The notes below the pieces were generated by a model. It was given only the letters and a program-made list of their open reading frames with translations, was not told where the DNA came from and did no database searches. From the NCBI GenBank assembly GCA_017506865.1, contig JAFCMP010000079.1, positions 1,240,001 through 1,304,000 of the forward strand: a stretch of DNA of 64,000 bases, in the 5' to 3' direction. Position 1 is the first letter of the stretch. Each line of letters begins with the position of its first letter. A program made the position numbers and the translations under genes. Below, one piece after another: positions 3,545 through 60,843 of this stretch. Origin of the DNA: Tribonema minus (taxonomy: Eukaryota; Sar; Xanthophyceae; Tribonematales; Tribonemataceae).

Positions 3545-3680
3545 GCGGTTATTCGGCGGCCTCGCACGCGTGGTGCCCTCGCTTGGGCACGCACGCATTC
3601 CAGCAAGCCAGTAGCAAGGGCAACAACGCAGCCTCTGCACATGCGTAAACAGCTGATTGCGCTGTACATATAGGTATGTG

Positions 3681-3978
3681 TGTTACGGATTGTACATTGT
3701 GGTATCCGTGTCTGATGATGCCATTATTAGGGCATACCCCTGGTATGTCGGGTGATGATGCAGGGTTTCATACAAGTTACTCCTGAGTCAGATCCCCTGG
3801 GTTGTGCCGAGGGTCCAATTGCAACTTGCCAAAAAGGCAGCTGCGCAATCACTCTCTCTCCATCTCTCCCTCCTGGCACAAGACAGCTATAGCTGAGGAC
3901 ACCCCCACCTCCACAGGTCTCCACCAACAACAAGGTAAGTTAGCATGCTGTAGCACACTGCTGAGCTCTCCTAAAACA
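3681..3978 (+). repeat. 5' LTR
   Basis: The 298-bp LTR starts TGTTACGGATTG and ends CTCCTAAAACA. It differs from the 3' LTR at two sites (GGGTTG here, GGATTG there; CTGCGCAA here, CTGCACAA there), about 99.3% identity, which implies recent insertion. The second change is CpG to CpA, as expected from deamination of a methylated cytosine. Near the 3' end is a perfect splice-donor consensus (CAAG|GTAAGT, intron side from 3935). Confidence 0.97.
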
Positions 3979-4833
3979 GTGGCAACCGAGAGACAGGCGC
4001 TTTGTGTGTCTTCCGCTTAATCGCGAGGCCTCGCTACGCGATACCTATATCGTAGATTAGTGTCGTGAGTGTCCTCTGCCTTAATTGCGGAGCCACGCTA
4101 AGCTCGATTACCCTCCGTAGGCTTCCGGGTAGCACAGCGTAGTGTAGCACAGCGTAGTGTAGCACAGCTTGAACGTACACATCGTGGCCGCCTCTCGTGG
4201 CCAGCTAACGGCAATTAACCCGTACACATCGTGGCCAGCTAACCTCAAGTAGGACGCTCCGCCTTCGAAGCAGAGTGGCAGTTGTGAATGTGTTTGTGTG
4301 TGTGTTACAACGTGTGCACGCGACAGCGATTGCCGAGCTCGCGTAGCTCCTTAGCTACGAAGTCTCCTGTGCTGCTCACACAGGCACGCGTATAGTGCAT
4401 CACATGGCCGGCATTGCCAGCACCACGTCGTGTTGCGTGCTGCGGGCTGAGGCAATTGCTAGAGCAAGCAGTCAGTAGGGCAGCTTCATGACTCGTAAGT
4501 CTGCGCGCCGTGTGTCGGCACGGCACTGCCCTCTCTTTACGCTCATATTGCGTTGACGTATTGGTGCGCACCCACGTTGCATGTCGTGACGTCTCCCATA
4601 GCCATGGTGGTAGGGCTGTGGGGTGCACATGCCCCTTTCCTTTTCGCTCCTTAGCGTCCCCAGCATCACCTTTGACAGGGGGGAGGATTGGGTTACAACA
4701 ACATAGTGCATCTGATGCTGTGCCCTCTGTTTTTCGTTGGTTAATGACCACAGACGCAGAGCACAAATCCACCACTGACTGCTTGCCATAGATCATCCTG
4801 GGCTCATCTCTTTTCTGCTTCGCCGCATAGCAG
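3979..4833 (+). other. Retrotransposon leader: candidate primer-binding site and probable 5'-UTR intron
   Basis: TGGCAACCGAGAGACAGG starts one base after the LTR (3980) and is the candidate primer-binding site; the matching tRNA was not identified. The leader is 855 nt long and non-coding. It holds short tandem repeats (GTAGCACAGCGTAGT type, about 4129-4169; CGTGGCC-AGCTAAC type, about 4173-4245). A pyrimidine-rich tract ending in ATAG|CAG|ATG directly precedes the gag ATG at 4834, and the LTR has a strong donor at 3935, so most of the leader may be an intron of the subgenomic mRNA. Confidence 0.6.
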
Positions 4834-7180
4834 ATGACTGACAACGGTGCCGGGAACACTGCTGGAACCCAAGGGCCCAAGCGCACCTCCAAGTCTGGCG
4901 GGTCGCGCCGCGATGCCCAAGCAGCTGCGGATACCAGCGCCGCCGATCGCCCCTCTCGCCGCGCCAACGCCCAGGCCGCTGCTGAGGCTGCAGCCAAGGC
5001 GGCGGAGGAGCCCCCACCTCGCCATGGACGCGCACGCTCCCGCTCTGGCGCGGAGGACACCTCTAACTCGGAGGACGGCGCAGGCGGACAGCAGCGCAAT
5101 GGCGACGCCCCGGTGAGCCCAAACCGTGATGATCCCCCTGAGCGTCGCGCAGTGTCTCGTGCACAGGATGTTGCCGTGCAAGACCTTATTCGTGCTTCCA
5201 AGACCATAGCTCTCTTGCCTGAACCCCCGGCTGACGCGCCCGAGGAGTTCAAAGAGCTGCTTGCCGCCTTCCGTGCGGAGCACGCGCAACTTGCCAGCGA
5301 CGCTCGTCGTTCTTCTGAGGCTGTCTCACGCCTCAAAGCCGTTTGATCGTGGCCGACTCCGACATCGACCGCACCAAGCGGGCCTTGCTCAAAGTCAACG
5401 ACGACGATGAGCGCAGCGAGCTTGAACGTAAGCTCGTGGCTTTCTCCTGTGACAAGTCTGAGGTTGAGGCAGCTCTCCAGACTTTCCGCCTTCCCCGCGA
5501 GGAAAACGTTGCCCAGTGCACACTGGTGCGCGAGCTGGCCGTCCATGCCATCAACCTCTACAAAGCTGGCGCAACCTATGACGACATCCTCGCCGCTGTC
5601 GACGCCAAACGCAACCCACGTGCAGGTGTGACTAACACCTCCCCGGCTCGCACTGTCTCGCATGATGCTCGTGACCCTGGCAAAGAGCGTGTTGCTCAGC
5701 TCAACATCATCGCAAAGCTCCCTTCTCAGCTCTCGCTAGAACCTATGCTAGTCGAGTCATCCATTGCTGCTCGCGAAAGGCTTTGGAATGAGATGGGTGT
5801 GAAGCAGGAGTACTGGGCGGTTGCTCTTGACAAGCCATTCCTTCGGACAAGCGTTCTGAAGTGAATGGGCTCTCAGCCACTATCAACGGTGTCACCACCG
5901 GGTGGGACACACTAACCTACCCTCAGCGCGTCGCAGCCCTAACCGCCAAGTATGATGATTGGACTGCGCGGCACACCGCTCGCGATGAGTGGTCTCGCCT
6001 CACTTACAATTGGCGCGCTGAATCTCCCCGTGACTTCTTTGACAAGCTTGATGTCTTTGGTCGCCGGGTTGAGGGAGGCTCTAGTGTGGCCACGCGGCGC
6101 GAGAAGTTTTACAACTGCATGCCAGACTTTGTCAAATGCGAGCTTGACAGGCGTGACAACTTTTGGGATGACCCGCTCCCTGTTAGCGTGAACCACGCCT
6201 CAGCTGTGTGGCGCACGCATCTGCAGCAGAATGGGATTCCTCTCCCAGTCTCGTCTCCCAGCGACCCCTCTGCTGCTTCTTCCCTCTCCACCTCCGCCAA
6301 AGGCTCTGCGGCGCAGGTGCCAGACCTCAGCAGCCTTCCGCGCCGCAAGGCGATGAGGGAAGAGAAGAACCAGGAGCGAGTGCAGGCCGCCAAGGAGGCG
6401 CTCAAGGCTGACGACTCCAAGGCCGCCTACGCCCAGCTCCACGCCATTTACGGACAGTCCCTGCCGGCCGCGCCCCAGGGCGGCGGCAAGGGCAACGGCA
6501 AGCGGAAGCACCCCGCCATCGGCGAGCCGGCGTCGAACCCCAAGCCTGGCCTGCCTTATGCTCCCTACAACAACTGGGAGTGCAACCGCTGTGGCGTCAT
6601 CGTCACCACCGGCGAGCGCTACGCCGACCACCACAGCTCGGCGGAGTGCAGAGACAACAGGCGCCCCGGCAACGGCCGCAACCGCGACCGCCAGCGCGAC
6701 CGGCGCGACAGGGCCCCTACTCCAGCGCCTGCGCCGGCGCCCGTCTTCGCCGTACAAGCAGCGCCCATGTACACTGTGCCTCAGCCGGTGGCTCCTCAGC
6801 TCGCCGCCGTCCAGACCACCGCGCCGCCCGCCACTTGGCACACCACGTACCAGATGCCAGCCGCCGCGGCGCCAGCCCCGGCGCCAGCGCCAGCTCCAGC
6901 CGCCGCGCCGACTGCCGCCGCCGCCGCCGTGCAGCCCTGGCCTGACATGAACGCGGCCTTCGCCGCCTTCCTGGCTCAGCACGCTGCTGGCACCAACATC
7001 AACAGTGAGTACATGTCCTCAAAGCGACTGCGCACCTCTGCCACTCGTAGCCAGTCTGCTTTGCTCGCCACGTTGGGCGTAATCGCGTCCACCCCAGCTG
7101 CACCTCAGTGCGCGCCGAGCGCTGCTGCAGCAGCTGCGTCTGCACCCACGCCTGTTGCGAGTACCCCTGTTGCGTCGCGA
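4834..7180 (+). CDS. gag polyprotein of the retrotransposon (frame-broken)
   Basis: The ATG at 4834 follows an acceptor-like site. Frame 1 runs to 5346 (Ala-rich, charged N-terminus), continues in another frame at 5343-5864 (DSDIDRTKRALLK onward, helical), and in a third frame from 5861 (capsid-like part with WSRLTYNWRAESPRDFFDKL). The C-terminal part has a CNRC-x17-HHSSAEC cluster (about 6580-6645), a Cys/His zinc-binding candidate in place of the usual CCHC knuckle, an Arg/Asp-rich stretch, and a long Pro/Ala linker up to about 7180. Each junction needs one added base to restore the frame. Gag is expected to form the virus-like particle. Sequence downstream of 7180 in the next frame leads straight into the methyltransferase, suggesting an original Gag-methyltransferase fusion. 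Confidence 0.8.
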
Positions 7181-8474
7181 CATTGCATGCCGCGTGCGCT
7201 GCATCTGCATCTACGCCTGTTGCAAGTGCCCCTGCTGCACCTGCAACACCGCATGCTGCGCGTGCTCCTGCTGCATCTGCGCCTACTGACACTGGCATGA
7301 CTGCACCGCCGGCACCCTTCCATGCACGCCCTCACGTGGCTGTTCCCCCTCCCCCTGCTGCTGCGACCCCTTCCGCGCCTCAGACGAGTGAGCGCACTAG
7401 GGAGCAGGCGACGGAGCGCCATCTCACGCACGCGTCGCTGTGCTGCGGGATTGGCGGTTGGGAGGAAGGGTTTGCGCAGGCAAGCAAACTTGGCTTGCAT
7501 GTCAACACAGTGCTTGCTGTTGACAACTGCGCAAAGACGTGTGACGCGTATAGGGAGACTCACCCTACGTCTGCCGCGCCCCAGTGCATGTCATTTGATG
7601 ATCCCCGCATCATCCACCAACTGCGCAAGCTGCGCCCTAACCTCACCACGTCCTCTACCCCTTGCACAGATTTTGCAAACGGGAGGGAGTGGAGGGAGAG
7701 GCGGCGGAGCTGACATACAAGCTGGCCAAGGTGGTTACGGAGGCAGAGCTTGAGTTGGTGTTGTCAGAGAACGTCCCGCAGATGCTCAAGTCGCAAGCAT
7801 GGGGTAGGGGGAAGGCCCACCTGTTGGCCAATGGGTACGCAGTGTTAGAGACAGTCATCAAGGCATCGGAGCTTGACACCTGCTGCAGGCGTACGCGCGC
7901 GCTCGTCCTCATTGTGCGCAACCGCCTTGGTGTCAAGGCCGCGCTCCAGCGCCTTTGCGCAGTCCTCAATGCCATGTGCAATAATGGAATTCCACTTTCC
8001 ATGAGACATGTTCTGAAGGTTCCACGCCGTGTTCGCGGTTGCTTCTTGCGCCCTCGCGTGCGTTCCTCCAAAGGCGTGCATGACCTTGATGGACTGTTTG
8101 GCAGCCCCACGCGTCGCTGGCCTGGCTTGCCTCCTGTGAACCCTGCTCACTACATCCCATCCCCCGATGACGCATGTGATGTACGTAATGCTATGACTGT
8201 CACCCCCCGCGACATGGCGCTCATGCTGACATACAGGTCTGACTTGCCAACTGGCAGCCAAGAGCAGTTGCAGCTTTGGCTGGCCAACCTTGTCATGCCT
8301 GATGTCGCCCACGCATTCTTGCTTGCTGCATGGTGCAGTGGCATCTTTGACATGCAAGAGTCCAGCCCCTCTCATGATGGCTTTGCAATGTCATTGGATC
8401 GCAACGCGCCCACACCTGAGTGGCTCGCTGACAGCACTGCCGCGCTTGAGCACACAGACGGCACGGCCTCGTGA
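7181..8474 (+). CDS. C5-cytosine DNA methyltransferase domain inside the retrotransposon
   Basis: After a Pro/Ala linker, the frame that is open from 7108 reads LCCGIGGWEEGF (7438-7473; motif I, SAM-binding), VLAVDNCAKTCDAY (motif II with an acidic residue), MSFDDPRI (motif III) and SSTPCTDF (motif IV; the catalytic Cys codon is 7663-7665). A -1 frame change in the G-rich run 7679-7694 moves the rest to the frame ending at 8474. That part has VLSENVPQML (motif VI ENV, 7767-7775), RRTRALVLI (like motif VIII, with the usual Gln absent), TPRDMALMLTY (about 8202-8235) and LANLVMPDVA (about 8280-8309), which match motifs IX/X (TPRE...GNAVPP) loosely. About 350 residues, with no BAH, PHD or ADD domain, so a compact enzyme. 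It would transfer a methyl group to cytosine in DNA. Retrotransposon-borne DNMTs are known from dinoflagellates and a charophyte. This copy is broken. Confidence 0.88.
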
Positions 8475-8863
8475 GAGACGCAACACACGCTCGTGCAACG
8501 CTGCATCAACGCTGTCCAACGCATCTCCCGCGACAGCGAAAGCACAGCACGTGCCAAGCTGTCTGCAGTCGACTTAGTGCCAGACAACACTGGTGAGCAG
8601 GAGAGCGACACAGACGCGGTCGCGCCCAGCTTTCTCAGAGATGCAGCACCTGACCCAGTCTCTGCAGACGCTGACTCTGACACTGAGCCCATGGACTGCT
8701 CAGAAGAAGGGGGAGAACTCCAACAACCCCAACTTCAACTTCAACAACAGCCCCTGCGAACCTCGCAACTTAGCTTTTCTCACGTGCCTGTGCAGCCAGG
8801 CGAGAAGGTGGCCTACGCCACAGGCAGCCCCAGCGCACAACGGTTCATCAATCCATCGCACGC
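8475..8863 (+). CDS. Acidic/Gln-rich spacer between methyltransferase and protease
   Basis: After the TGA at 8472-8474 the same frame stays open to 8894 (ETQHTLVQRCINAVQRISRD...). It is rich in Ser, Asp, Glu and Gln, with a QLQLQQQ stretch and no recognised domain. It probably belongs to the polyprotein and links the methyltransferase to the protease. The join to the pol frame needs another -1 change between about 8850 and 8890. Confidence 0.5.
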
Positions 8864-11800
8864 ATGCCCCACCAGCGAGACATCAAAGAGCTGAACATGG
8901 AGTGCATGCTGGACAACGGAGCCACGGCAACCCTGCTGAGCATAAAGCAGAGCGGACGGCTTCCAGAGGGTAGCGTACAACCGCTGCGACAGGGTGACTT
9001 CACCGCCATCGAACTCGCAGACAGCAAAACGCGCATCCCTATCACCGGCGCGGTGCAAATGACTCTGCGGTTCATGAAGACCCTCGTTCGTCATCGGTTC
9101 TATGTGACCGACATACCCATGCCTGCCATCATCGGCGGCGACTTCTTTGGGAGCTTTGGCAGTAGCCTGTCGTACTCTACAATGGAGTTCTTCCCCACGC
9201 CAGACTCCAGCGTTGCCATCCCCATGCGGCACAAGCGAGACGACAAGGCATCGAAGTTGTGCAACTTCAAGGGCCTCGTGGACAGAGTCGTCGCAGCCCC
9301 TGCTCCCGTGCCCACTGCCAAGCGCAGTGCACGCCTCCTAGAGGAGGTAGTGATGTCGCCATTTTCAGAGCAAGTGGTCGAACTCGCGCTGTTCCCGCCT
9401 CCCAAGGACACGCCAGAGCACACTGCGTTGATTCACGCAAGCCATGACCAGGTGATGGAGAGCCTAGCTGCGCAGGGCCTTCGCGTAGCCTTCACTGCGG
9501 TCACAGTCGCACCCAACAACCCTGTCATGGTCAAGCTTGTCAACACTGGCTGCTTGCCTGTCCTCATCCGCAAGAACACCTTTGCGGGCACAGCCATTCC
9601 TGCCACAGAGGAGGACATCCTTGAGCTTGATGAGCAGACCAGTCAGAACACAGAGCAGCTCAAACGTGAGTTGCAGAAGCGCGTGCTGGAATATGCAGTC
9701 AGACACCACCAGTCGAAGGCGTTCAGGCAGGCCGCAGACGCTGCACTCAAAGCCCTAGCCTCTGAACCGCCCATACAGGAGTCAGACTCCCCCAGCACTG
9801 CGCCAGGCGCACACGGACCACAGCGCTCACCTGGCTCCGCCGCCCAAGTGAACGCATACAGCTCCGTCTCAGACGTTTGTGGGGATGAGGAGCTGCGCAC
9901 AATGCTCATGACCGACGGTCAACTCAACCCCATACTCAAAGAGAAGGACTCGAAGGGGCAAGTATGGGCAGACCGAGTCTTTGACGTCTTGAAGCGGCAC
10001 CGCGCCTGCTTCCCGGCTGACCCGAAAAACCCGCACGTCACAGACACCACCGAATTCGACATTGACACCGGTGATGCATTGCCCATGGCGGACAGAGCCA
10101 GACGCTGGGCCCGCGCAGAGGCTGAGTACATCATGCAACAGGTGGCTCAGATGCACGCACGCAAGCAGATTGAGCCCTCCAATAGTCCCTGGGCTTGCAC
10201 CCCCGTTCTCGCACGACAGGGTGACAAGATTCGCTTCTGCATCGATTTCCGCAAGCTGAACTCTGTCACCAAGCGAGACAGCCACGGGCTGGGCAACATA
10301 GATGACATGCTGCACAAAGTGCAAGGCACCAAGGTGATCAGCACGCTGGACATGGCTGCTGGCTACCACCAAGTGCCCCTCACCGCGGACGCAAAGCCCA
10401 AGACGGCGTTCCGCACGCCTGATGGTGGACTCTGGCAGTACACCGTGGCCCCTTTTGGCCTGGTGAACTTGCCCGCACAATTCATGCGACTCATGCACGG
10501 TGTGCTGGGCGAGGAAGCCCTGAAGGACTACGCAACCGTGTACGTGGATGATGTGCTCGTCTATGACACCGACAAGGAGGCCCACCTCCAGCACCTTGAC
10601 GCAGTTCTCACGCGCACTGAGGCTGCAGGCATGAGTGTGGCCTGGAAAAAGTGCCAACTCTTCCGCTCTGAGGTCAAATTCCTCGGGCATATCATTGGTG
10701 CAGGTGGCATCCGCCCTGACCCTGAGAAGGTGAAGGCAATGGCAGACATGAGCGCACCCCTCAACGCTAGGGGCCTCGCGGACAAGCGGCTCGTACAAGT
10801 CGCTCTAGGCGTGTTCAACTATTACCGCCGCTACGTGCGCAACTTTAGCGCCATCGCAGCCCCGCTTGTCGAGCTCACCAAGGATGGCGCGAGCATGGAG
10901 TGGAACGCGCGCCGCAGAAACGCTTTTGAGCGGCTGAAGCAGGAGATGTGTAGCGCTTCCATAGTGGTGCACCCCGACTTCTCACTGCCCTTCGTGCTCT
11001 ACACGGACGCCTCCAAGGTCGCCACCGCCGGTGTTCTCACACAATTCCGGCCGGTCACGGAGCTTGACAGCCCGCTCATGAACGCCAAGCCACCAACCTG
11101 CACTGGGCGCACTAGCCTGGTTGAAGGGACCTTGCAGCGTGAGGTCGTTGTGGGCTACTTTTCAAAGATGAACTCTGTTCAGGACGCCAAGATGGGAGCC
11201 ACAGCTCTCGAGTGTCTTGCAGTAGTCTTGTCAATGAACCACTTCCGGCCTTACGTCTGGGGCAGGCCATGCACTGTCGTCACTGACGCAGCTGCCCTCC
11301 GCTGGCTCCTTACACTTCAATCGAATGACGGCAAGCTGCTCCGCTGGGCCATGCGCCTACAAGAGTACGACATCACCGTCCAGCACCGACCTGGCAAGGT
11401 CAACTCCAACGCTGACGGACCCTCTCGGCTGCCTCAGCAGGCAGAGCTAGACGCGCCCCGCCGTGTCGAACACGCCGATGAGGAGTGGCCCGACTCCATT
11501 GCCACTTTTGATGCGCCGCCGTCAGGTGTACAGTTCGCAGACGACCCAGCCACCACACACGCGGTGGAGCGAGCCGACACCACGGAGCCCGGACAGCGCC
11601 CCTCTGACGAGCGCGTCGCCACCGTGGCCTCATACAAAGGCTACGTCGTGCAGCACTCTATGGGCACGCCCTTCCGCCTCAACGAGCTTGCAGCCTGCCT
11701 GGCCAGCTTTGGAGGCATCGCGCAGTCCCTCAGCGAGGTGACCCCAGAGTCAGCAAGGCAGCTGCTCCACATGCACGCAGATGAGTCCCCATGTGAGGTC

Positions 11801-13348
11801 GCACCAGGTGAAGCCGCCACACTGCTCACCCCGGCCACCATGGATATGCACATGAACGCTCTCCTTGACGAACACTTCAAAGGGGACAGGGACAGCCTCG
11901 GCTTGGGCACCTTGGAGCCCTGGCGTCAAAGCAAGAAGCGTCGCAGCAACGCAGGAAAGGCCGTCCAGGTGGCCACCACCACTGCCACCACAATCGACGC
12001 GGACCCCGCTGACGCCGCCGTTGCACGTAACAACAGTGACGGTGAGCGCCCCCGTAAGCGCACTCTGCCGCGGCCTGAGCCCACGCCTCTTGCTGCGCAA
12101 CCAGAGCCTGCCAGTGCTGGACCGCCGCCTACACCTGCCATGCTGAGTCGTGAGGCCTTCATCGAATTTCAGCGCTGCGACCCCTTCTGCTGTGCAGTGA
12201 CTCGCCTGCTGGCTGATAAGGAGCTGCCCACGGACAAAGACCTTGCCGTGCACTTGATGGTGGCACGCGAGTGCTACAATCTTGAGCATGACGGTCTCCT
12301 CATACACTTCGCAAGCAGCCATCCCAAACGCGGACAAGTGCTGTGTCAATGGGTCGTCCCCGCCGCGCTACGCACCCTGGTGCTTCGTCTGTGCCACGAC
12401 GACGCCAGCGCGGGCCACTCCGGCGTCAGCGCCACCCACATTCGTGTGTTCGAGCGCTACTACTGGACTGGCATGGCCCATGACATCCGCACCTATGTGA
12501 CCAGCTGCCTGGCGTGCCAGCTGAACAAGAAGGCCAACACATCCCGGTACAGGACTTATCTCTTTCCCTCCACTCGCATGTTCCAACGGCTCAATGCAGA
12601 CCTAGTCTCGCCGGGCTCGAGGGCAGGAGGGTTTGAGTACATCCTTACTGTGGTTGAGGCCAGGTCTGGCTTTGTGTGGCTCTTCCCACTCAAGTCTAAA
12701 GACTCCAAAGAGGTGTCAGCGCACCTCTACACTGTCATCCTAGAGGCAGGCGCCCTCGTGGAAGAGATAGTCACCGACCAGGGTGGAGAATTCATTGCTG
12801 GGGTCGTGCATGACTTGTGCACCAGCATGGGCGTGAAGAAGATCCAAACCAGTGGCTACCACCCCCAGACCAACGGCGTCGCCGAACGCATGAACGCTCG
12901 CGTCTTGCAATCACTCCGCCTGTGGGTGAACGACCGCCAAGACAACTGGCACGAAGGCCTCGAGACCCTACAGTTTCAACTGCGAGCAACTCCTCGCGAC
13001 GAAACGGGCCTGTCACCGTTCTTCTGCGTCTACGGGCGTGAAGCCACCCTGCCGCACGACGCGTTTCACCACGCAGACCGTCCCATGGACCTACACACGG
13101 AGGTCGAAAAGCGCATTGAGTCACGGCTGTTGGCTGAAAAGGTCATCAGTGAAGCCTCCGGCAAGCGTGCTGCCAAAGTGGCAAAGCAAAACGACATCAT
13201 CAAACGCTCCGTCAACGCCGCCATCGGAGATTGGGTCCTCGTCAGACGAGAGCCAGTCGAAGAGCGCGCACGCAAGATGGACGAGAAGTACACTGGGCCC
13301 TGGCAAGTGATGGAAAAAGCAGGTGACTCAGGACTCTCCTTCACATGA
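8864..13348 (+). CDS. pol polyprotein: protease, reverse transcriptase, RNase H, integrase
   Basis: Long open frame of about 1490 codons. The aspartic protease has CMLDNGATATLLS (the Asp codon at 8912) and IIGGDFF; the active-site triplet is D-N-G rather than D-T/S-G. The reverse transcriptase has RFCIDFRKLN, LDMAAGYHQVPL, FGLVNLPAQF and the catalytic YVDD (10541-10552). RNase H has VLYTDASKVATAGVL, ALECLAVV and VVTDAAALRWLL. The integrase has the HHCC zinc finger (CHDDASAGHSG ... CLACQLNK), the catalytic core with NADLVSP, VTDQGGEF and GVAERMNARV supplying D, D and E, and GDWVLVRREP. RNase H preceding integrase is the Ty3/gypsy order. A large Ala/Pro/Arg linker lies between RNase H and integrase. 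No stop interrupts the catalytic domains, but the frame ends at 13348 within the integrase C-terminus. Confidence 0.96.
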   Translation: MPHQRDIKELNMECMLDNGATATLLSIKQSGRLPEGSVQPLRQGDFTAIELADSKTRIPITGAVQMTLRFMKTLVRHRFYVTDIPMPAIIGGDFFGSFGSSLSYSTMEFFPTPDSSVAIPMRHKRDDKASKLCNFKGLVDRVVAAPAPVPTAKRSARLLEEVVMSPFSEQVVELALFPPPKDTPEHTALIHASHDQVMESLAAQGLRVAFTAVTVAPNNPVMVKLVNTGCLPVLIRKNTFAGTAIPATEEDILELDEQTSQNTEQLKRELQKRVLEYAVRHHQSKAFRQAADAALKALASEPPIQESDSPSTAPGAHGPQRSPGSAAQVNAYSSVSDVCGDEELRTMLMTDGQLNPILKEKDSKGQVWADRVFDVLKRHRACFPADPKNPHVTDTTEFDIDTGDALPMADRARRWARAEAEYIMQQVAQMHARKQIEPSNSPWACTPVLARQGDKIRFCIDFRKLNSVTKRDSHGLGNIDDMLHKVQGTKVISTLDMAAGYHQVPLTADAKPKTAFRTPDGGLWQYTVAPFGLVNLPAQFMRLMHGVLGEEALKDYATVYVDDVLVYDTDKEAHLQHLDAVLTRTEAAGMSVAWKKCQLFRSEVKFLGHIIGAGGIRPDPEKVKAMADMSAPLNARGLADKRLVQVALGVFNYYRRYVRNFSAIAAPLVELTKDGASMEWNARRRNAFERLKQEMCSASIVVHPDFSLPFVLYTDASKVATAGVLTQFRPVTELDSPLMNAKPPTCTGRTSLVEGTLQREVVVGYFSKMNSVQDAKMGATALECLAVVLSMNHFRPYVWGRPCTVVTDAAALRWLLTLQSNDGKLLRWAMRLQEYDITVQHRPGKVNSNADGPSRLPQQAELDAPRRVEHADEEWPDSIATFDAPPSGVQFADDPATTHAVERADTTEPGQRPSDERVATVASYKGYVVQHSMGTPFRLNELAACLASFGGIAQSLSEVTPESARQLLHMHADESPCEVAPGEAATLLTPATMDMHMNALLDEHFKGDRDSLGLGTLEPWRQSKKRRSNAGKAVQVATTTATTIDADPADAAVARNNSDGERPRKRTLPRPEPTPLAAQPEPASAGPPPTPAMLSREAFIEFQRCDPFCCAVTRLLADKELPTDKDLAVHLMVARECYNLEHDGLLIHFASSHPKRGQVLCQWVVPAALRTLVLRLCHDDASAGHSGVSATHIRVFERYYWTGMAHDIRTYVTSCLACQLNKKANTSRYRTYLFPSTRMFQRLNADLVSPGSRAGGFEYILTVVEARSGFVWLFPLKSKDSKEVSAHLYTVILEAGALVEEIVTDQGGEFIAGVVHDLCTSMGVKKIQTSGYHPQTNGVAERMNARVLQSLRLWVNDRQDNWHEGLETLQFQLRATPRDETGLSPFFCVYGREATLPHDAFHHADRPMDLHTEVEKRIESRLLAEKVISEASGKRAAKVAKQNDIIKRSVNAAIGDWVLVRREPVEERARKMDEKYTGPWQVMEKAGDSGLSFT

Positions 13349-14294
13349 TGGGCAGCCGCATCAAACAGAATCTGTGCACGTCACGCACATGAAGCCCTTC
13401 CGGCTCCGCAACAGCCACTTTGAGCACACATCTCCACACGTGCAACTCACAGCAGCGCAACTGCAAGACCTTCCCCATGAGGAATGGCTCGAACGCATAG
13501 TCGACAGACGCGTCGGCCCCAACGGCAAGTGGCAGTACCGCTACATCGACAGAACGGGCCAGCAGAGCGACTTCACCGGCGAAGCTGCCATGCTCGAAAT
13601 GACGCAGCCGTGGGTACTTGACACGTTCCACGCCATGTATGAGCTGCGTCATGGCGACTCCATACCCCTGTACGCGCGCCGCCCTGAGCCTCCAGCCTTG
13701 CGACGGCTCTCGGTTGAGGAGGCCCTACAGCGGTTTTCACGCGGCACGACAGTGGTGCGCGAGGTGACCACCCCCTCCGGCTCACGCGAGTACATCTGGG
13801 GTGCAATCAGCGGTTACCTCCACCCCTACTGGCGCGCACGCTACGACGATGGCGAATGGGAAGAGCTCAACGCAACTGAGGTCAAGGCTGCCTTTGCCCT
13901 GGCTGAAGCAGTGAAGAGCAAAGCCCAGAGACGCGGCATCACCGCCAGCAAGCCGCAGATCACTCTTGTCACCAGCCCTCTGCTACCTCGCAACTTCGGT
14001 GCAGACAACGTCGGTGATGTGATCCGGTACTACAGCAGCTGCACTGGTTGGTCTCGCGGCCGCCTTGTAGCGTACCACCCTCGCCATTCACGGCACACCT
14101 TCGATGTGCTGTTCACAGGCGAAGCACGGCCACGGCGCCTGCGCTTGCGTGAGGGGTACTACAAAGTCAACGAGCAAGACGCCAACGCTCCGCTGACGGA
14201 TCCCCCCCATAGCACTTGGAACCTCATCGTCGACCAAGCCGACACACCCGTGTCCATTGAGAGTTCCTTGGCTTACGTCCGTGCTGTGCTTTAG
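13323..14294 (+). CDS. C-terminal integrase extension (chromo-like plus DGEWEEL-type modules)
   Basis: This frame overlaps the end of pol and is shifted +1. It continues the integrase tail with VHVTHMKPFRLR, the usual VH-S-LKP motif of gypsy elements. Next is EEWLERIVDRRVGPNGKWQY followed by a Thr-Gly-Glu-Ala turn, resembling a degenerate chromodomain. Then comes ISGYLHPYWRARYDDGEWEEL, a type of module I associate with reading or nucleic-acid-linked domains in algal transposons, and a final Tudor-like segment (RGRLVAYHPRHSRHTFDVLF). Such tails direct integration in known chromoviruses; that role here is inferred. The stop is at 14292-14294. Confidence 0.7.
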   Translation: MTQDSPSHDGQPHQTESVHVTHMKPFRLRNSHFEHTSPHVQLTAAQLQDLPHEEWLERIVDRRVGPNGKWQYRYIDRTGQQSDFTGEAAMLEMTQPWVLDTFHAMYELRHGDSIPLYARRPEPPALRRLSVEEALQRFSRGTTVVREVTTPSGSREYIWGAISGYLHPYWRARYDDGEWEELNATEVKAAFALAEAVKSKAQRRGITASKPQITLVTSPLLPRNFGADNVGDVIRYYSSCTGWSRGRLVAYHPRHSRHTFDVLFTGEARPRRLRLREGYYKVNEQDANAPLTDPPHSTWNLIVDQADTPVSIESSLAYVRAVL

Positions 14295-14468
14295 CCGCCC
14301 CCGGATTCACCCTGTGGGGCTCGCCATCCCTTTTACCGCTCTGACTCGAACAGCTTTTTGACACCAGCCACTCATGTGTCAACATAGAGTCTTAGCGTGC
14401 GAGTCCTGTGGGCCCAATGTGCCTCTGTTTGCAGCGCTGATCCCTGAGACCGCCGTCGAGGACGACGA

Positions 14469-14488
14469 CGAATCGAAGAAGGGGGAGC
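14469..14488 (+). promoter_or_regulatory. Polypurine tract of the retrotransposon
   Basis: GAATCGAAGAAGGGGGAGC lies directly before the 3' LTR (TGTTACGG at 14489). Its purine run and position fit the plus-strand primer. The 174 bp between the last stop and this tract are non-coding. Confidence 0.85.
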
Positions 14489-14786
14489 TGTTACGGATTG
14501 TACATTGTGGTATCCGTGTCTGATGATGCCATTATTAGGGCATACCCCTGGTATGTCGGGTGATGATGCAGGGTTTCATACAAGTTACTCCTGAGTCAGA
14601 TCCCCTGGATTGTGCCGAGGGTCCAATTGCAACTTGCCAAAAAGGCAGCTGCACAATCACTCTCTCTCCATCTCTCCCTCCTGGCACAAGACAGCTATAG
14701 CTGAGGACACCCCCACCTCCACAGGTCTCCACCAACAACAAGGTAAGTTAGCATGCTGTAGCACACTGCTGAGCTCTCCTAAAACA
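14489..14786 (+). repeat. 3' LTR
   Basis: 298 bp, TG...CA, two substitutions relative to the 5' LTR. It is followed by TGTG (14787-14790), the target duplication. 14787-15022 is unannotated, with no coding signal. Confidence 0.97.
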
Positions 14787-15022
14787 TGTGTACTCTATAT
14801 AGCTGTAGGGGCTACTGCTCTCATGTAAGCCGCCAATCAAGTATATGCAACCCATACATAGCGCTACCTGAGTCATTTCTGTGGAAAGCCAATGCGTGTA
14901 GACAGCTTACATACTACTTGTGTGCATTATATGGTAGGAACATGCCATCAGTGAGTTCACTTCACATACTTCTATGTAGTTCTAACCCTAGGCCCTAGTT
15001 GCCCAGTGGCAAGTGCTTGGAA

Positions 15023-15425
15023 CTTACCTACCCCACAGGAACCGCTGGAGGAAGGCTGAAGGGAAACCCCTTGCCCACGTCTGGACTGCGTACCATCTGT
15101 AAGCTGAGTGGACATTTACAACCTGCCACAATACATGTGTTCTCCAGCTTGCCTTCATTGCATTGTCTCTCCCTCCTGTGTTCTGACATGGCAACCAGGC
15201 ATTACACACTTTGCGAATGATCACGTTGCTGGTCTCATCCTCAACCCCACGTTGCTACTCATTTGTTTACAAGATGTGTGTGCCAAGTGCGCGTTCACGT
15301 TCACCGAGTGAGCACTCATAGCGTTCATTTCCATGGGTCGGTCATTTTGTTTTGACGCGCGTTCGGCCCTGCATATTTGCTTGAGGGAGGCGGACTTGCA
15401 TCTTCAAGCTGCCAATCCAGTGTGT
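15023..15425 (-). repeat. Diverged dispersed repeat, copy B
   Basis: Collinear and same-orientation relative of 1145-1540. On the minus strand the frame through it reads CIVAGCKCPLSLQMVRSPD, but copy A does not preserve it well. The two copies lie on either side of the Ala-rich gene and the LTR element, so they could be ends of an older composite unit or independent copies. Confidence 0.6.
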
Positions 15426-16339: not shown

Positions 16340-19300
16340 TTAGAAAGCGCCCTGGCCATCCTGTGGCAACAGAGAAGCAGAGGGGAGCAGTCGAGTCAGC
16401 ACAACAATCACGCAAGTTTTTTGTCATTTCCTTGGTGAGGCGCATGCAAGAACAATACCACGACATCGCAGCATCACATGATACATCAGTGACCATTGCC
16501 ATGCGTGCCGCAAGCCGCTTGATACATGTGCCAAATCAAACAAAACATCAATGGCAATTGCCACCTGACAACATCTAGCTTTCACTTTTTCTATAGCCCC
16601 GGCATGAGCTGCTGGTTCGAAGCAAAGCTGCTGAACAGGATTCAGTGTGCCACTCTCTATGCAACAAAAGCGTAGTGCGACTTCCTTGACTCGGCTTACT
16701 GCTGCTGTTTGACTGGTCTCTTCCAAAAAAAGCAATATGGAAAAGGCACATGCTCACAAACCAACGCAGTGAGGCAGCAGGACTTACCCCGAATGGGCTG
16801 ATGTGGCCTGGTGGATGAACGCCGCCGACAGACAGAGGCAAGGAGAAACAGTAGGAAAAGCGGTGCACAGGTGGTGAGCACGAGGTGATGCCACAAAGCG
16901 ACACATACCCTGTGCTCACAACTTCATACTTCATGTTCAGGGACACACAACTGCGCAAGGGCTGAAGCAGCACCAGGGCAGTTGCGAACCTGGCACTCGC
17001 GAGTGCTGGTCAGCAGTGGCACAGCCAGCATGATACACGCAGACGTCAAAGCTACAATGCCAGAGCAATGTGTGTACAGATGTGGTCACTTCGGGTCAGG
17101 TTAGGGTAAGGTTCACAGGTGCCTGAAGTAAGTAAAGTATGAACATGATACACCAAAACTGGTTGGATGGCCAAATAATCTGTGGATCTCAAACTACACA
17201 TGCCTGAAACCTTCGACTTACTCATCATGTTGATGCATGAGGCAGTGCTCTACCAATGCAAACGCACCCAAATGAGAGGTGTAAGACAGACCAATGCAGG
17301 CCAATCTGCTGCTTCTAAACTCAGCCATTCTGCTGCTTCTAAAAAAAAAAAGCAGCTTGCTCGCTGCCGCACTAAGCTGCGGAGGTACCTGAGCAGGCGG
17401 AATGCTGCCAGCGAGCCATGAGTATTGAACCGTGCGGTACCAGCCAGGCTGGCGTCAACGTTCATCAAAGTACATCACGGACTGTTGCACACGCCACCAC
17501 TACAGTCCACAAGGGCGACTGAAACCAGTGGGCGGGGCGCTGCCACGCAGTGGCAAACACAATGTCACAGTGCTCAGCTTGAAGTCAAACGTCGCAGCGC
17601 TCAAACGCGCACGCACCTGAGGCGAGCTGCGCGAGCGGCGTCTGGCCGGTGAGCCCCTCCTGCACCATCATGCCCATGATGCCCATCATTGCGAGGCGGC
17701 CGTTCTTGAGCTCCTTCAGCTGCAGCGCCGCAAACTTCTCCGGGTCCTCCGGGAAGGGGTTGAAGCCCAGGCCGAAGCCGAGGTCGCCGGGGGCCTTGTT
17801 CTCAAAGTCCTGCTTGCCGACGGTCAGCTCGATGACGCCGATCGCGGCGATGATCTGGAGCCAGCCGGCCATGGGGACCTGGGAGATGGCGCCGAGGCCC
17901 GCGGGGATCTTGCCGTCGTACAGGGGGTGGTACACCTCCGCGACCAGGTAGCCGAGGGTGGCGAGCACTGAGGGGCAAGGAGGGGGGGAGGGGTGGTGGG
18001 GCTTAATAGAGTGAATTGTATGACAGAAGGGGGGAGAGGGGTAGTGCTCAGTTCATCGGGGACAATTTGCCTGTGACCAGGCTCTCTGCGGCGCCAATCG
18101 TGTTAGACCTCCATTGAAGGTAGCAGCCTCAGCCAGACATTCAAATGACGGAACATGTTTTGAGAATCAGTGTGTAGTGTCAGAAGTACGGTGGGGCAGT
18201 TGCAGTGGATGTGCTGCAAGGGGAGTGTGACTACAAACAGGGAATTCACACGGCGGCGTCTGCATGCCAGCAGCCCGCCCCGCCCAAGAGCTGTTAATTT
18301 ATTTACCTGCTAAGCCTTGATAGAACTGCATGCAAGCTTAGACTGCCGACACCTGTTAGCAGGTGACTTGCAGCAGCACCAGACCTGATCACTTTTGTAG
18401 CTGACTGTCTGACAACGCATGGTGTGCCTTGTGCATCTCACGCATGGGCTTCGCGCTTGGAGCATGGTTTGTAGTCTACTGATAGATCAGGACAGCTGCT
18501 GCGCTGCACATGGTCCTGCATGCTAGCTACAGGCAACAACTGATGGCATTTGCAGGTGGTGTGCAACTCTGAAAAACAGCATCATCAGCAACAATTCATT
18601 TTTACTATTGATGATGCATGGACTCACTGCAGATGCGGCCGTGCTTGAGCTCCACTACGCGGCGGCGGAAAAGTGCTGCCTCGTCCTTAGAGAAGCCCAG
18701 GGGGTCCCACACGCCCCTGCACGGGAAGCCACAGCGACACGCAAATTGCTAAGTAATGCATGCATGCGAACACTTGGCAAAACAGGGTGGGGGTGCAATG
18801 AAGGCAGCAGAAGTAGACGAAGAGGGCTGCAGCAAGTATCGGCAGGCGAAGACTACACGAGACAGCGCACGGCAACAAGTGACGTGCTTCAGCGGCGGTT
18901 GTGGGTGTGGCTCTGTGGGCATCAATACATGGCAAGCGCGCGAAGATGAGCTGGTACTCACTTGGTCTCGACGTCTGCGCCGAGCAGGTCGTTCACCGAC
19001 ATAGAGACCACAGCTGTGACACGACAAGACAACCACGCAGAAGAGCGGAAGAGCAGGTGTTAGGGCTCCTGAACACGCTCATGATCATCTCGCTCAGCAC
19101 CAGCGCCACGGCCAGCCATCACCCAGCGCTGACCAGCACGCAGTCCTTGCACTAGCTAAGACTGCGGCCAACGGCGTGAGTGAGCCGAGGCTGCCCAACA
19201 TGATCACGATCACGATCACGGGCGTCAGCTCCTCCTGTCCTCTACACACAGTCGCTCAACATGCTGCAAACTGATCATGCGGCAGCAAAGCTCCGCTGCA

Positions 19301-56056: not shown

Positions 56057-59000
56057 TCACGCGCCCGTCTGGCCGCTGACCGCGACCGGCGGCGGCGGCA
56101 CGCCCGCGACGCCGCCGTCGCAGCCGCCGCCGCCCACCACGTAGTTCATGAAACTGTGGCGCGCCTGCTGACACGCCGCGCCGCTGCCGCCGCCGCCGCC
56201 GGCGCCGGCCAGCGACGGCGGTCCGCACGGCGACAGGGGGCGCGACCCCCCGGCGCTGGGGGCCATCATGGGGGGCTCCGCGCCGCTGCTGCCGCCGGCG
56301 GCAGCGCTCGTCCCGTCCACGGGCGACCCGAGGCTCAGCTTGGCGTTGAAGATGTTGGCCGTCTTGGTGATGCACAGCGGCGAGACGTCGCCGCCGCCGT
56401 CGCCGCCGCCGCCAGAGGACGGCGGCGGCAGCGCGTGGAGGCACAGCTCGGGGGCGGCCGCGCCGGCGCCGGGGGGCACCGCCGCCGCTGAGCCGCACTG
56501 CTGCTGCAGCGGCGGCTGCAGCGTAGTGCTGGTGGGCGTGCCGCCGCCGCTGCTGCCGCCGCTGCTGCCGCCGCTGCTGCTGCCGGCAGTGGTCTGCGCT
56601 GGCGGTGGGTACAGGACCGCGGGCGGGCCGAGACCGCCCTGGCTGCTGCCGCTGCCGCCGCGGCCGTAGGGGTACATGCCCCCGCCTCCGCGCTGCGGCG
56701 CGCAGTAGACGGACATGTTGTTGTACAGCGGCCGCCCCCCGGGACCCCCTGCCGGTGGGTTGAGGTTGAGCATCGGCGTGTGCGCGCCGCTGCTGCCGCA
56801 GGGGGGGTCCAGCGAGAGGGACAGCATGGGCGCTGGCAGGCCGGAGTCGCCGCCGCTGCCGCTGAGCGATGCCGCCGCTGCCGCCGCGGTGGCGACGGAG
56901 CGCAGCTGCGCCTGCGCCTGCGCGCGCGCCGCCGCCGCCGCCGCCTCGCGCGCCGCCATCTGGCGCGCCTGGCTGGCCTGCACGATGGGATGAGTGAGCA
57001 GCGGGGCATTACGTCAGCGCCTGTACGTCGCACACGTCACAATGACTGCGCATGCATGCTGGCAGCTTACCACAGCATGAGTAGCGTGGCGAGTGTGCAG
57101 CTGCGATGTGGAGGTGCAACAACGGCAGTCTGCGTCAAATGACTACATGTATCACCTCTACGCATGTACGGCATGCGAACCTGCTGCACGCCGCCAGGAT
57201 ACATACCTGCATGGTGGAGCCGTGCTGCTGCTGAATGCTGCCGCCGCTGCCGCTGCCGCCGCTGCTCCACGACACGTTGAGGTCCAGCGAGATCCCCTGC
57301 TGCATGCCGTGCTGTTGCTGCTGCTGCTGCTGCTGCTGGTGCTGCTGCTGGTGCTGCTGCTGCTGCTGCTGGTGATGCTGGCGCGCCCGCTGCCCGTGTT
57401 GCAGCTGCTGCTGCTGCTGCTGCTGCTGGTGATAGTGCGGCTGCGGCTTGTGTAATTGCGGCGCCATCAGCCCCATACCGTCCACCTCCAAGCCCGTGTC
57501 CCTGAGGCTGAACCCGTCAAACGCGACACTGCCGCCGCCGCCGCCGTAGCCACCACCGCCGCCGCCGCCCCTGCCGCCGCGCCGCCCGGGCGCCCTCGGA
57601 CCGCGCCGCTGCTGAAACTGCCGCATGCCAGGCGCAGCGCTGCCGCCGCCGCCGCCGCCAACGCCCACGCCACCCAGAGGTATCGGGCTCATCTCCCCGT
57701 CCGACTCCGGCAGGCTCCCCGCGACACTGTCGTTGTCGCACTCGCCGTCGCTGCCGACGTCCATGGCGCTGCCGCCGCCGCCGCCGCCGCCGCAGCCGAG
57801 GGAGGCGGCGGCGGACGGCGCGGCGGCGCGGCCGCGCGCGGCGGCGGCGGCGGCGCCGCCGCCGGCGCGCGGCACGGTGAGGTGCGCGAGCTGCGTGCGC
57901 AGGCGCGAGAAGTCGCCGGTGCGCAGGAGCTCGGCCTCGTCGATGTCGTGCGGGCGCGCGGCGAAGACGGCGTTGAGGACGTCCGGGTCGAGCCCCGCGC
58001 TCGCCGTCTTGATGATGAGCTCGCGCTTGGTGCGCAGCGGCCCCGCCTTGGCGCGCAGCGCGGCGGCGGCCTTGTCGTCGGACGCGCCCAGGATCTTCTC
58101 CTCCAGCTTGCCGAGCGACTTGTTGAGCGACGACACCTGGCGGTGCGGCCAGCGCTTGATGCCGTACTGGCGACACAGCTTCTTGAGCATGGTGAGGCTC
58201 ACGCTGAGCTCGCGCGCCGCAATGTTCAGCGGCACGTGGTAGAACTCCTCGAGCACGCTCACGGGCAGGCGCTTGGCCACCTCCTCGCTCGTCTGCCGCT
58301 TGCTGCTGAGGCCGCCGCCGCCGCCGCAGCCGTCCTCGCTCGGCGCCGTCGACGCCGGCCGCGCGCCGCCGCCGCCGCCGCCGAACTGGAATGCGGCGCC
58401 GCCGCTGCTGCTGCCGCGCCGCTGCAGCTGCGGCTGCGCGTGCAGCGGCACGTCCGTCGCGAAGTTGATGTCGTCCATGTCCAGCAGGAACGGGTCCATG
58501 TCCGCGATGGACGCGACGGGCTCTGCCGCGTGGTGCAGCGCGCCGCTGCTGCCGCCGCCGTACGGCATGGCGCCGTCGCGGCCGACGGAGGCGCGGGTGG
58601 AGCGGCCGCCGCCGCTGCGCACGCGCTGCTGCTGGTGGTGCTGCTGCGGCAGCGGCGGCGGCGGCGGCGCGAGCGCGGACGCGTACGGCGAGCGCGTATG
58701 CGCGCGCTGCTGCGGCTCCAGCGGCTCGATGTCGAAGCTGAAGCTGTTTGTTTTGTGCAAGAACGCGTTCGGGCCGCTGCCGCCATGCAGTGGGGGGTAG
58801 GACCCCAGGTGTGGGTCGCAGGCCGCCTGCAGGCCGTCGTCGCACAGGCTTGCTGGCACCGTGCTGTGCGGCGAGGCCGAGGAGCAGGCGTCGCCGCTGC
58901 CAGGTGACTCGCCCGTGATGAGCTCGTCTATGGTGCTCATCGCAAAGGCCGAGTCGCGCGGGTCCCCCAGGATGAGGGGCTCGACGAGTTTGAACTCGCC

Positions 59001-59699
59001 GTCGTCTAGCGCGGACCCGATCGACACTCTGCTGTCCACGACACCGTCGAGGTCGAAGGACTCGCGGAAAGTGTGCACGGGGCCCCCGTCGATGTCGCCG
59101 CCGCCGCCGAGCATACTGTGTTTCCAGGCTGCCACCCTGCTGGGGTCCTGCCCATGCATGCCCATCCCTTCGATGCCGTCTACTCCCAGCAAATCTAGTT
59201 CTAGGTCCTCCGTCCTGAAGGAAGGGAGACTGCGTGGGGCGGCGGTACCTCTGCCACCGCGCGATTGGCCTTCGCTGAGCAAGAAGGAGTCGTCCGTGGT
59301 GAAGCTCGGACGCTTGTTGCCGAGGCCTGGGATGAGGTCGAAGCTGAGGCCGCCCCCGCCGAAGATGCTGGCCATGCTGGCATTGGTGCCAGTCTCGCCT
59401 AGGCCCTCTGCAGCGCCAAGAAAGTCGAAATGGTCATCCAAGTGTGACAGGTTGAAGCTGGCGCGCCTCTCGCTCTTGCCCCCCTGCACCCCGATGTCAT
59501 CGTTGGAGGAGAAGCGAAACGAGGGAGGCCTACGCTTCATCCTCTTGGTCGGGCTGGGACAAGCATCAAGAAAACTAGGGATGCGCCTCTGGGCGCGTCC
59601 TTCGTGAGGGTGCTCGCCCATGGCTACTGTGCCCCTCTGTGCGAGCCGGTTGGGCCCCACATCTGCTGCGTAGGCACCGTCATCTCCCTGCCCCGCCAT
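56057..59699 (-). CDS. RWP-RK domain transcription factor (two exons)
   Basis: Exon 1 is 59699-57207 (ATG at 59699; donor ATGCAG|GTATGT) and exon 2 is 56977-56057, phase 0, giving 1137 residues. The RWP-RK domain lies at about residues 480-540: LPVSVLEEFYHVPLNIAARE, LSVSLTMLKKLCRQYGIKRW, then PHRQVSSLNKSLGKLEEK. The core is RWPHR, a usual variant of RWPYR. The rest is disordered: an acidic/Ser N-terminus, long Gly and Ala runs, His/Gln tracts at about residues 760-800 (57300-57430), and a Gly/Pro/Ser C-terminal half. RWP-RK proteins bind DNA and control nitrogen responses or gamete development in plants and algae; which applies is unknown. Triplet-repeat tracts make the length of Q and G runs prone to variation. 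Confidence 0.9.
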
Positions 59700-60843
59700 A
59701 GCCACCTCCAATAATAGCCCGCGTTCCTGCTTCCTGATGTTAGTTTTTGCGGCATTGCACTCTGCGCAAAGAAGCAGTTACACTTGTGGTGACCGCGTAT
59801 CAAAGGGGGTCTCTCCCGGTTGCCGCAAATCGGGCGGGGTTTCCGAGCGAGTCTTGTTCAGCGCGTGCGCTGCAGCACCAGGACGAATTGCAGGCACGTT
59901 TGTCGCAGCCCGAGTCCGAAAGTCTGCTGATCCTTGTCAACACGGCCCGGGGACTCCACATTTTGCGCTGCACATAATCCGAGCAATGCTTCGAAAGTTG
60001 GATTGAGCAATTGTTTTTTGTCTGTGACTTGAATGTAGACTAGACCATGGCGCACACTCTCATGGTGTTGACCATGAATTCTGAGCCGGCCTCTGGTACT
60101 TAATGGCTCCGCCTGGGTGTGTGGGAGTGCTCAATTGGATTTCGGGGGTAACCCCCCAAGGAGGGATGGCATCTCTCGCGTACATAACCTGACCCTCAGG
60201 CTGTAATTTGGATTTCCATGTAGTGCAACAATTAGCCACTCATGTACTCAACATCACAGTTTCTGACAAGAAAAGGTCCACAGTGTACGCTGCAATGCAT
60301 GATTTGTCTGTAACAGAACTTCAAGTTGCCTGCTATGAGCACATCCGTGAGAAGCGGGCGCGAGTTGGCCAGCAGTGCCTGTTGACTGTGTCACGCTACT
60401 GTAAAATGCTCAGCTTTCCAGACACAAGACCTTGTTGATGCTGCCTGTTTTGACTCAAACTTTTGAGCGTCTGCACCCTATGAGAAAAGTAGTGCCGCAG
60501 CCACCATCAACTTTTATGATGGTGCGATTAATCTGCTCTAAGCTGAAAGTGTGAGATACGGCTAGGGTGTTTCGAGATAGTACACAATTAATAACAGTAC
60601 ACAAGCAGTACAGAATTGTTCACAACAGTACACACCTGCCAATGTGGGGTCTCGAACCATCGCTTCTTGAACAGAAGTTCTGGACGGCGGCGCGAGAAGC
60701 AGCAGCAGTGGTAGATCCTCAACACATCGGTAGTCACACGCCTGCAGAGGACTTGTCAATTCTTCGTCCACTCAACCTGGGGGCATACCAATAGGCAAAA
60801 ATCCGAGCCCCACCAAACACGACCCACTTCATCAAGTTCAGCG
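59700..60843. promoter_or_regulatory. 1.1-kb region between divergent RWP-RK and bL12m genes
   Basis: Both genes start at the edges of this region. Nothing coding was supported. GTACACA repeats occur near 60580-60635. No promoter element was identified. Confidence 0.45.

Follow-up and report, generated by a model that had tools for sequence, protein, structure and literature searches.

The window analysed here, a 64,000-nt stretch of the genome of Tribonema minus (Xanthophyceae), contains one complete LTR element at 3681-14786. Its parts are listed below in window coordinates, with DNMT standing for a C5 cytosine methyltransferase.

3677..3680 (left) and 14787-14790 (right), no strand: target-site duplication TGTG, 4 bp, flanking the LTRs
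3681..3978, + strand: 5' LTR (TG...CA), a 298-nt direct repeat with 2 mismatches to the 3' LTR
3980..3992, + strand: possible primer-binding site, starting TGG one base past the LTR (by eye, tRNA unassigned)
4831..7300, + strand: gag, in three frames in this copy (4831-5346, 5319-5864 and 5831-7300; ORF list)
6581..6649, + strand: zinc-finger-like motif CxxC...HH...C near the end of gag (motif; similar motifs by eye in other copies)
7051..7713, + strand: ORF with the N-terminal half of the DNMT (PF00145, 25.7 bits, profile 3-75; motifs I and IV)
7301..7431, + strand: Ala/Pro-rich linker from gag to DNMT, where identity to the copy L018 jumps
7432-7470, + strand: DNMT motif I, ASLCCGIGGWEEG (motif)
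7641..8474, + strand: ORF for the remainder of the DNMT (PF00145, 24.2 bits, profile 79-167; motifs VI, VIII-like and X-like)
7648-7683, + strand: DNMT motif IV, TSSTPCTDFANG (motif)
7764-7787, + strand: DNMT motif VI, SENVPQML (motif)
7881-7916, + strand: DNMT motif VIII-like, CCRRTRALVLIV (motif)
8277-8318, + strand: DNMT motif X-like, WLANLVMPDVAHAF (motif and profile-profile alignment)
8774..13348, + strand: pol ORF (Pfam RVT_1 3.5e-29, RT_RNaseH 6.6e-23, Integrase_H2C2 3.4e-19, rve 2.3e-8)
8906-9151, + strand: protease motifs in the pol ORF (motif only)
10223-10696, + strand: RT in the pol ORF (RVT_1, 3.5e-29)
10976-11368, + strand: RNase H in the pol ORF (RT_RNaseH, 6.6e-23)
12356-12532, + strand: integrase H2C2 in the pol ORF (Integrase_H2C2, 3.4e-19)
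12575-12853, + strand: integrase core in the pol ORF (rve, 2.3e-8)
13311..14294, + strand: C-terminal part of pol, a separate frame in this copy (ORF list)
about 13800-13889, + strand: Tudor-like stretch (PF21743, 13.0 bits, under the cut-off of 27.2)
14475..14488, + strand: purine tract adjoining the 3' LTR (by eye)
14489..14786, + strand: 3' LTR, 298 nt, starting TG and ending CA, with 2/298 mismatches to the 5' LTR

Gag lies 5' of the DNMT, and protease, RT, RNase H and integrase lie 3' of it, all in the same orientation. The Ty3/gypsy order of RT, RNase H and integrase with a DDE-type core is present by Pfam in the window and in other copies, and the window copy also has the direct TG...CA LTRs and short target duplication of this group. 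The element is a Ty3-type LTR retrotransposon with a C5 cytosine methyltransferase between gag and protease. The initial annotation had read this arrangement from motifs in one orientation between near-identical LTRs, and it is borne out by PF00145 scores over the cut-off and by LTRs that differ at 2 of 298 positions. The reading frames of this copy are broken: in the ORF list gag is spread over three overlapping frames, the DNMT over two and pol over others; it is a dead member of one of several related Ty3-type families.

The window gag has no Pfam match, and Rfam gave no match within the window at gathering scores. An aspartic protease upstream of RT is visible as a motif in the window; Pfam matches to it fall below the cut-off at the loci L032, L037 and L038, and L018 has none. 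By eye, the protease active-site triplet (window 8906-8929) differs among related families, reading DNG, DPG, DCG or DSG (L018, L031, L032, L033, L036, L038). The Tudor-like profile PF21743 reaches about 13 bits in two of three family-A C-termini, below its cut-off of 27.2. Elsewhere in the window, a 64-nt repeat (84% identical) flanks the element at 1403-1466 and 15301-15364 and is possibly an older repeat that was the element's insertion target. Two 137-nt direct repeats, 80% identical, lie at 2129-2553 inside an Ala-rich ORF (1690-2763). The minus strand carries a light-harvesting protein fragment of the chlorophyll a/b-binding type at 17585-18052 (PF00504, 2.1e-21) and a long ORF that encodes an RWP-RK transcription-factor domain at 57135-59711 (PF02042, 9.4e-19).

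The identity of the enzyme is supported by profiles as well as motifs. Both window DNMT ORFs exceed the Pfam cut-off for PF00145 (DNA_methylase), which is 22 bits; a profile search, proposed in the initial annotation as a check on the 7420-8474 translation, thus gave C5-MTase matches of 25.7 and 24.2 bits for the two ORFs, and the full-length DNMT of L018 scores 1.9e-13. The marks of a C5 cytosine methyltransferase are present, namely PF00145 over the cut-off together with motifs that we take to be numbers I, IV, VI, VIII and X. The C-terminal half, beyond the reach of Pfam, aligns with other C5-MTases up to motif X: a profile-profile comparison of eight group I DNMTs (the group of the window element, described below) with 29 other C5-MTases spans 299 columns at a probability of 99.9 and places the X-like motif opposite LANAVPP. 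Across these eight families, which are 28-41% identical to the first, the two motif I glycines, the PC cysteine, ENV and the two motif VIII arginines are invariant; one group I copy, L032, has motif I altered around the glycines. The motifs had been attributed to a single enzyme, and all of them are present, but here motifs I and IV lie in one frame and VI to X in another, so the window copy could not make the enzyme in one piece; in other copies they share one frame.

The closest solved structures point away from DNMT3. The single L018 DNMT sequence matched no solved-structure chain at E up to 1, whereas a profile of the group I DNMTs gave 53 matches at that threshold, the best being DNMT2 (4.3e-12), then HhaI (1.8e-9), with weaker matches to DNMT1 and to a chain named Rad8, presumably a fungal Dnmt5. 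DNMT3 is named in none of these 53 matches, nor in any of the 33 matches of the group II profile (1e-3), for which DNMT2 is again the best solved structure. By profile, the element DNMT thus resembles DNMT2, bacterial C5-MTases and DNMT1, not DNMT3. Protein database relatives number three for the single L018 domain and at least 14, among the best 8000 candidates scored, for the group I alignment; the latter comprise fragments without a name (62-97%), a single T. minus protein and distant enzymes. The T. minus protein P0006 matches L038 (G000:C62) at 98.7% over 78 residues and 76.1% over 88.

The same arrangement recurs throughout the genome, which was searched over 158 Mb in 554 contigs. With the second DNMT half (P0002) as query, at least 140 matches, the window counted, were obtained among the best candidates scored. 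Sixteen further copies of the window's subfamily, 94-97% identical to P0002, were compared with the window. Gag, DNMT and protease-region sequence occur in that order in all 17 copies, so the DNMT is not a one-off insertion, and RT lies within the compared stretch in 13 of the 17. In six of the 16 other copies, gag, DNMT and pol form one open frame of 3129 codons or more; five of these (L014-L018) differ by at most one residue in 2778, and the sixth, L025, departs from L018 by a single nonsynonymous change across the compared regions. Of the 140 P0002 matches listed, 29 are uninterrupted by stops and belong to frames of 3000 codons or more, and six are interrupted by stops. The frame of L014 (G000:C311 4150-7848) is listed with 6208 codons, roughly double the length in the near-identical copies (3129), and perhaps represents two copies in a row.

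Merging five DNMT searches, one of which contributed just the rows considered new, gives at least 280 loci that encode DNMT matches, a lower bound that takes in host genes (e.g. L001-L004) and fragments. L001, L002 and L003 are HhaI-like DNMT genes, 367-390 codons long, that stand alone and belong to neither element group. Of 98 related RTs, 83 are preceded on the same strand by a DNMT no more than 6 kb away (80 with a smaller DNMT locus set), at a median gap of 1765 nt; of the 15 RTs without one by match positions, some lie near contig starts and two may be split by a nested element. Match positions also place a minus-strand element of another DNMT-bearing family apparently nested in a copy of the window subfamily (G000:C27 439885-453879). 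In the RT search with group II, a DNMT accompanies 38 of the first 40 of 101 matches. Ten further matches, at 36% identity, belong to a more distant Ty3 family with frames of up to 3102 codons, and no DNMT lies upstream of any of these ten RTs; the 51 matches outside these counts are mostly partial. Ty3 elements without a DNMT also keep long open frames in this genome, so the enzyme is unnecessary for spread in general.

Between the window and L018, DNA identity is 61-76% over 4351-7100 and 94-100% over 7351 to about 13250, whereas the window and L020 are 97-100% identical throughout the part covered. The protein of the third gag piece is likewise 98.6% identical to L020 and 58.5% to L018 (418-419 residues). 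By these identities, the window copy is in a subfamily with a gag unlike that of L018, and the DNMT travels with pol, the jump lying near the Ala/Pro linker.

Two groups of DNMT-bearing elements can be distinguished. Group I, to which the window belongs and of which eight families were aligned, has the order gag-DNMT-PR-RT-RH-IN; this layout is based on the DNMT and RT to integrase by Pfam in L018, L031, L032, L033, L035 and L038 and by eye in L036, the locus L006 being too short to show it. Group II, with four sequences aligned, has the order PR-DNMT-RT-RH-IN, seen in L037 and L034, where the protease is below the cut-off and recognised by eye, respectively; L007 and L008 are short loci. The C-terminal end of L037 has a chromodomain match of 24.0 bits, just below the cut-off of 25.1, and L018 and L037 share 34.5% identity in RT. 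The DNMT tree places all of group I in a single clade (100/100). For group II, one tree unites its eight rows in a clade (100/100), but an earlier tree separated the two database rows P0028 and P0029 from the remaining six. Where the DNMT and RT trees disagree, the forks concerned have weak support. Grouping of group I with a host DNMT2-like sequence has no tree support and is not rejected (p-AU 0.098). A single origin of the two groups is compatible with the data (p-AU 0.217), and independent capture by groups I and II is not claimed as shown because one clade is not rejected. Single-protein patterns, which reach close relatives only, found no relative of the group I DNMT in viral contigs; a search of viral contigs with the group II DNMT gave 43 loci at 21-39% identity.

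The DNMT bears the signature of purifying selection in older copies. Relative to L018, its dN/dS is 0.15-0.24 in four of them (window, L013, L019 and L026), where synonymous changes are in excess (p 1e-6 to 0.006); the four close copies L011, L012, L021 and L022 show no such excess (p 0.44-0.81). These p-values are not independent, as the copies share history. Values without a p-value are 0.27 for L020, 0.39 for L023 and 0.18 for L024, and L014-L017 and L025 are too close to L018 for this test. Three pairs of related families give 0.18, 0.21 and 0.23, many other pairs being saturated. Pooled pN/pS is 0.285 for the DNMT and 0.366 for gag, compared with 0.133 in RT-RNase H, 0.130 in integrase and 0.135 in the protease region. 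The DNMT is conserved, yet evolves faster than RT.

CpG content was considered as a possible trace of methylation. The observed/expected ratio is 0.86 in the window element and 0.91 in the rest of the window, so strong depletion of the element body is not seen; eleven other loci with flanks give 0.81-1.01. Heavy lasting methylation has therefore left little trace in the body. The LTRs, in the one family to which this observation applies, have ratios of 0.21-0.48 compared with 0.83-0.86 for the element: the main subfamily has 0.42-0.48, and the window, L019 and L029 have 0.21-0.26. None of 103 body segments of LTR length has a ratio of 0.43 or lower; in the rest of the window 18 of 487 segments do, including 17 of the 198 of similar GC, and none of the 487 is at or below 0.26. 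In nine of ten copies, changes of the C-to-T type are 1.0-2.1 times as frequent at CpG as at other sites; in L019 the factor is 4.9. These CpG results are suggestive, not decisive.

For a retrotransposon to carry a DNMT is rare, but cases have been described in other algae. Symbiodinium has LINE and DIRS elements with DNMT, and Klebsormidium has Gypsy elements with DNMT3 (de Mendoza et al. 2018, PMC5890265). The initial annotation had named both host groups; its charophyte case is indeed Gypsy, but the dinoflagellate ones are LINE and DIRS, not Ty3-type (PMC5890265). Its suggestion of a further host lineage holds, since this Ty3-type element with its own DNMT belongs to a lineage absent from the 2018 report; the alternative it offered, independent capture, is favoured without being proved, because the profile unlike DNMT3 favours a capture separate from the known cases. 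KnitGypsy-Dnmt3 of Klebsormidium nitens is likewise an intronless Gypsy/Ty3-type LTR element that encodes a C5-MTase under purifying selection (PMC5890265). However, it is described with a DNMT3 within the Pol ORF and with repeats arranged as in DIRS, whereas the Tribonema LTRs are plain direct repeats and the Tribonema DNMT, without DNMT3 resemblance by profile, lies in the gag/protease gap in frame with gag (group I) or in the protease/RT gap (group II). SymbioDIRS-Dnmt3 and SymbioLINE-Dnmt also amount to hundreds of retrotransposon DNMTs per alga, some open and with catalytic residues kept, but their hosts are DIRS (with tyrosine recombinase) and LINE, in contrast to an LTR element with a DDE integrase (PMC5890265). 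The SymbioLINE DNMTs are reported as an orphan class; the Tribonema elements are set apart from SymbioLINE by architecture (LTRs, integrase).

Gypsy-10_Ec32 of Ectocarpus is a Tudor-bearing Ty3 element with a T. minus homologue (PMC12477816). It comes from the algal clade to which Tribonema belongs and may share the C-terminal end of the Tribonema element, but the paper's main text makes no mention of DNMT, and the Tudor-like match of the Tribonema element is below threshold. An orchid Ty3/Gypsy element has similarly gained a nucleic-acid-modifying enzyme, in that case an AlkB RNA demethylase in an additional ORF (PMC9289625). DNMT2 and bacterial C5-MTases such as HhaI are the closest solved enzymes by profile; unlike them, the Tribonema DNMT sits inside a retrotransposon polyprotein, and the single L018 sequence matches no solved chain. 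LTR Copia and DIRS elements with DNMT3 have been reported in a paper whose main text does not name Tribonema (PMC12344493), and the accessible text of PMC9998398 and PMC6338049 contains no comparable DNMT retroelement case. No report of DNMT retroelements in xanthophytes was found in a search that mostly left aside subscription papers, preprints and supplements. The Tribonema elements thus appear, from sequence, to have an enzyme type and layout unlike the dinoflagellate and charophyte cases.

The architecture, the copy number, the invariant catalytic residues, the purifying selection in older copies and the near-identical open copies are established. The elements are almost certainly Ty3-type families which took up a small C5 cytosine methyltransferase and maintain it within a single giant Gag-DNMT-PR-RT-RNaseH-IN polyprotein. 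The reading preferred here, to which we assign a probability of about 0.5 as a whole, is that the window holds a dead copy of such DNMT-capturing families, in which a packaged DNMT would mark new cDNA. By analogy with known Ty3 biology, the DNMT would be packaged in the particle with Gag and Pol, be freed by the element protease and methylate the new double-stranded cDNA, which would be its natural substrate in the particle, before integration. New copies would then enter the genome with the host's own mark, the simplest benefit that can be envisaged, and the CpG-poor LTR promoter would be largely spared. The self-methylation step, taken by itself, is tentative and falls a little short of an even chance. 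The low LTR CpG ratios and the methylation machinery reported for the host (PMC10538959) speak for the reading as a whole. Against it stand the faster evolution of the DNMT relative to RT, the four close copies without excess synonymous change, the body CpG ratio of 0.86 against 0.91, the restriction of low LTR CpG to one family, the window segments of similar GC with ratios as low as 0.43 (17 of 198), the altered motif I of L032, the long frames of Ty3 elements that lack a DNMT, and the nearest solved relative by profile, DNMT2, which is a tRNA enzyme.

That last point also bears on an unlikely alternative, in which the DNMT places m5C on element RNA or on the tRNA primer, for stability or packaging. 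DNMT2 is a tRNA methyltransferase and the best solved relative of both groups, the DNMT adjoins the Gag zinc finger, and RNA methylation was raised for SymbioLINE by de Mendoza et al. (PMC5890265). However, bacterial DNA enzymes score nearly as well (HhaI 1.8e-9), and the grouping with a host DNMT2-like sequence lacks support, though it is not rejected. Of similarly low probability is action in trans on the host, by which the enzyme would disturb silencing marks or compete with host DNMTs and so keep the element active. The enzyme could come from many copies, and the host apparently has methylation machinery, T. minus being reported with DNMT5, a DNMT4-like enzyme, HELLS and CDCA7 (PMC10538959), but fusion of the DNMT to Gag-Pol in the open copies favours the particle over the nucleus. 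It is considerably less probable that the DNMT is a passenger without present function, hitch-hiking with pol. Its faster evolution relative to RT and the four close copies without excess synonymous change speak for this; catalytic residues invariant in eight families, dN/dS of 0.15-0.24 in four older copies and open frames through DNMT and pol, including the 29 of 140 listed matches in frames of at least 3000 codons, speak against it. A chance motif match is ruled out by PF00145 scores over the cut-off in the window halves and in L018, and a gene inserted once into one copy by the DNMT at the same position in 17 of 17 copies and upstream of 83 of 98 related RTs, leaving these explanations a negligible probability.

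Marking of new cDNA by a packaged DNMT could also be part of a broader scenario, which is doubtful as a whole. Two Ty3 lineages would have captured non-DNMT3 DNMTs independently at different points of the polyprotein, and the Gag-side enzyme of the first lineage would methylate cDNA in the particle. The LTR would have lost CpGs, sparing the promoter, some families would carry a chromo- or Tudor-like reader end beside the writer, and the DNMT-pol cassette would recombine with different gags near the Ala/Pro linker.

This stramenopile case adds a new DNMT type, a new polyprotein position and young open copies to the known retrotransposon DNMTs. Because DNMT-bearing and DNMT-less Ty3 relatives coexist in the same 158-Mb genome, what the enzyme does for the element can be tested directly, by setting long-read methylation calls of the two kinds of family in the same cells side by side, and a transformation method for T. 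minus has been published (PMC7139823). The elements of T. minus thereby offer a new system in which to study what mobile elements gain from an enzyme that marks DNA.
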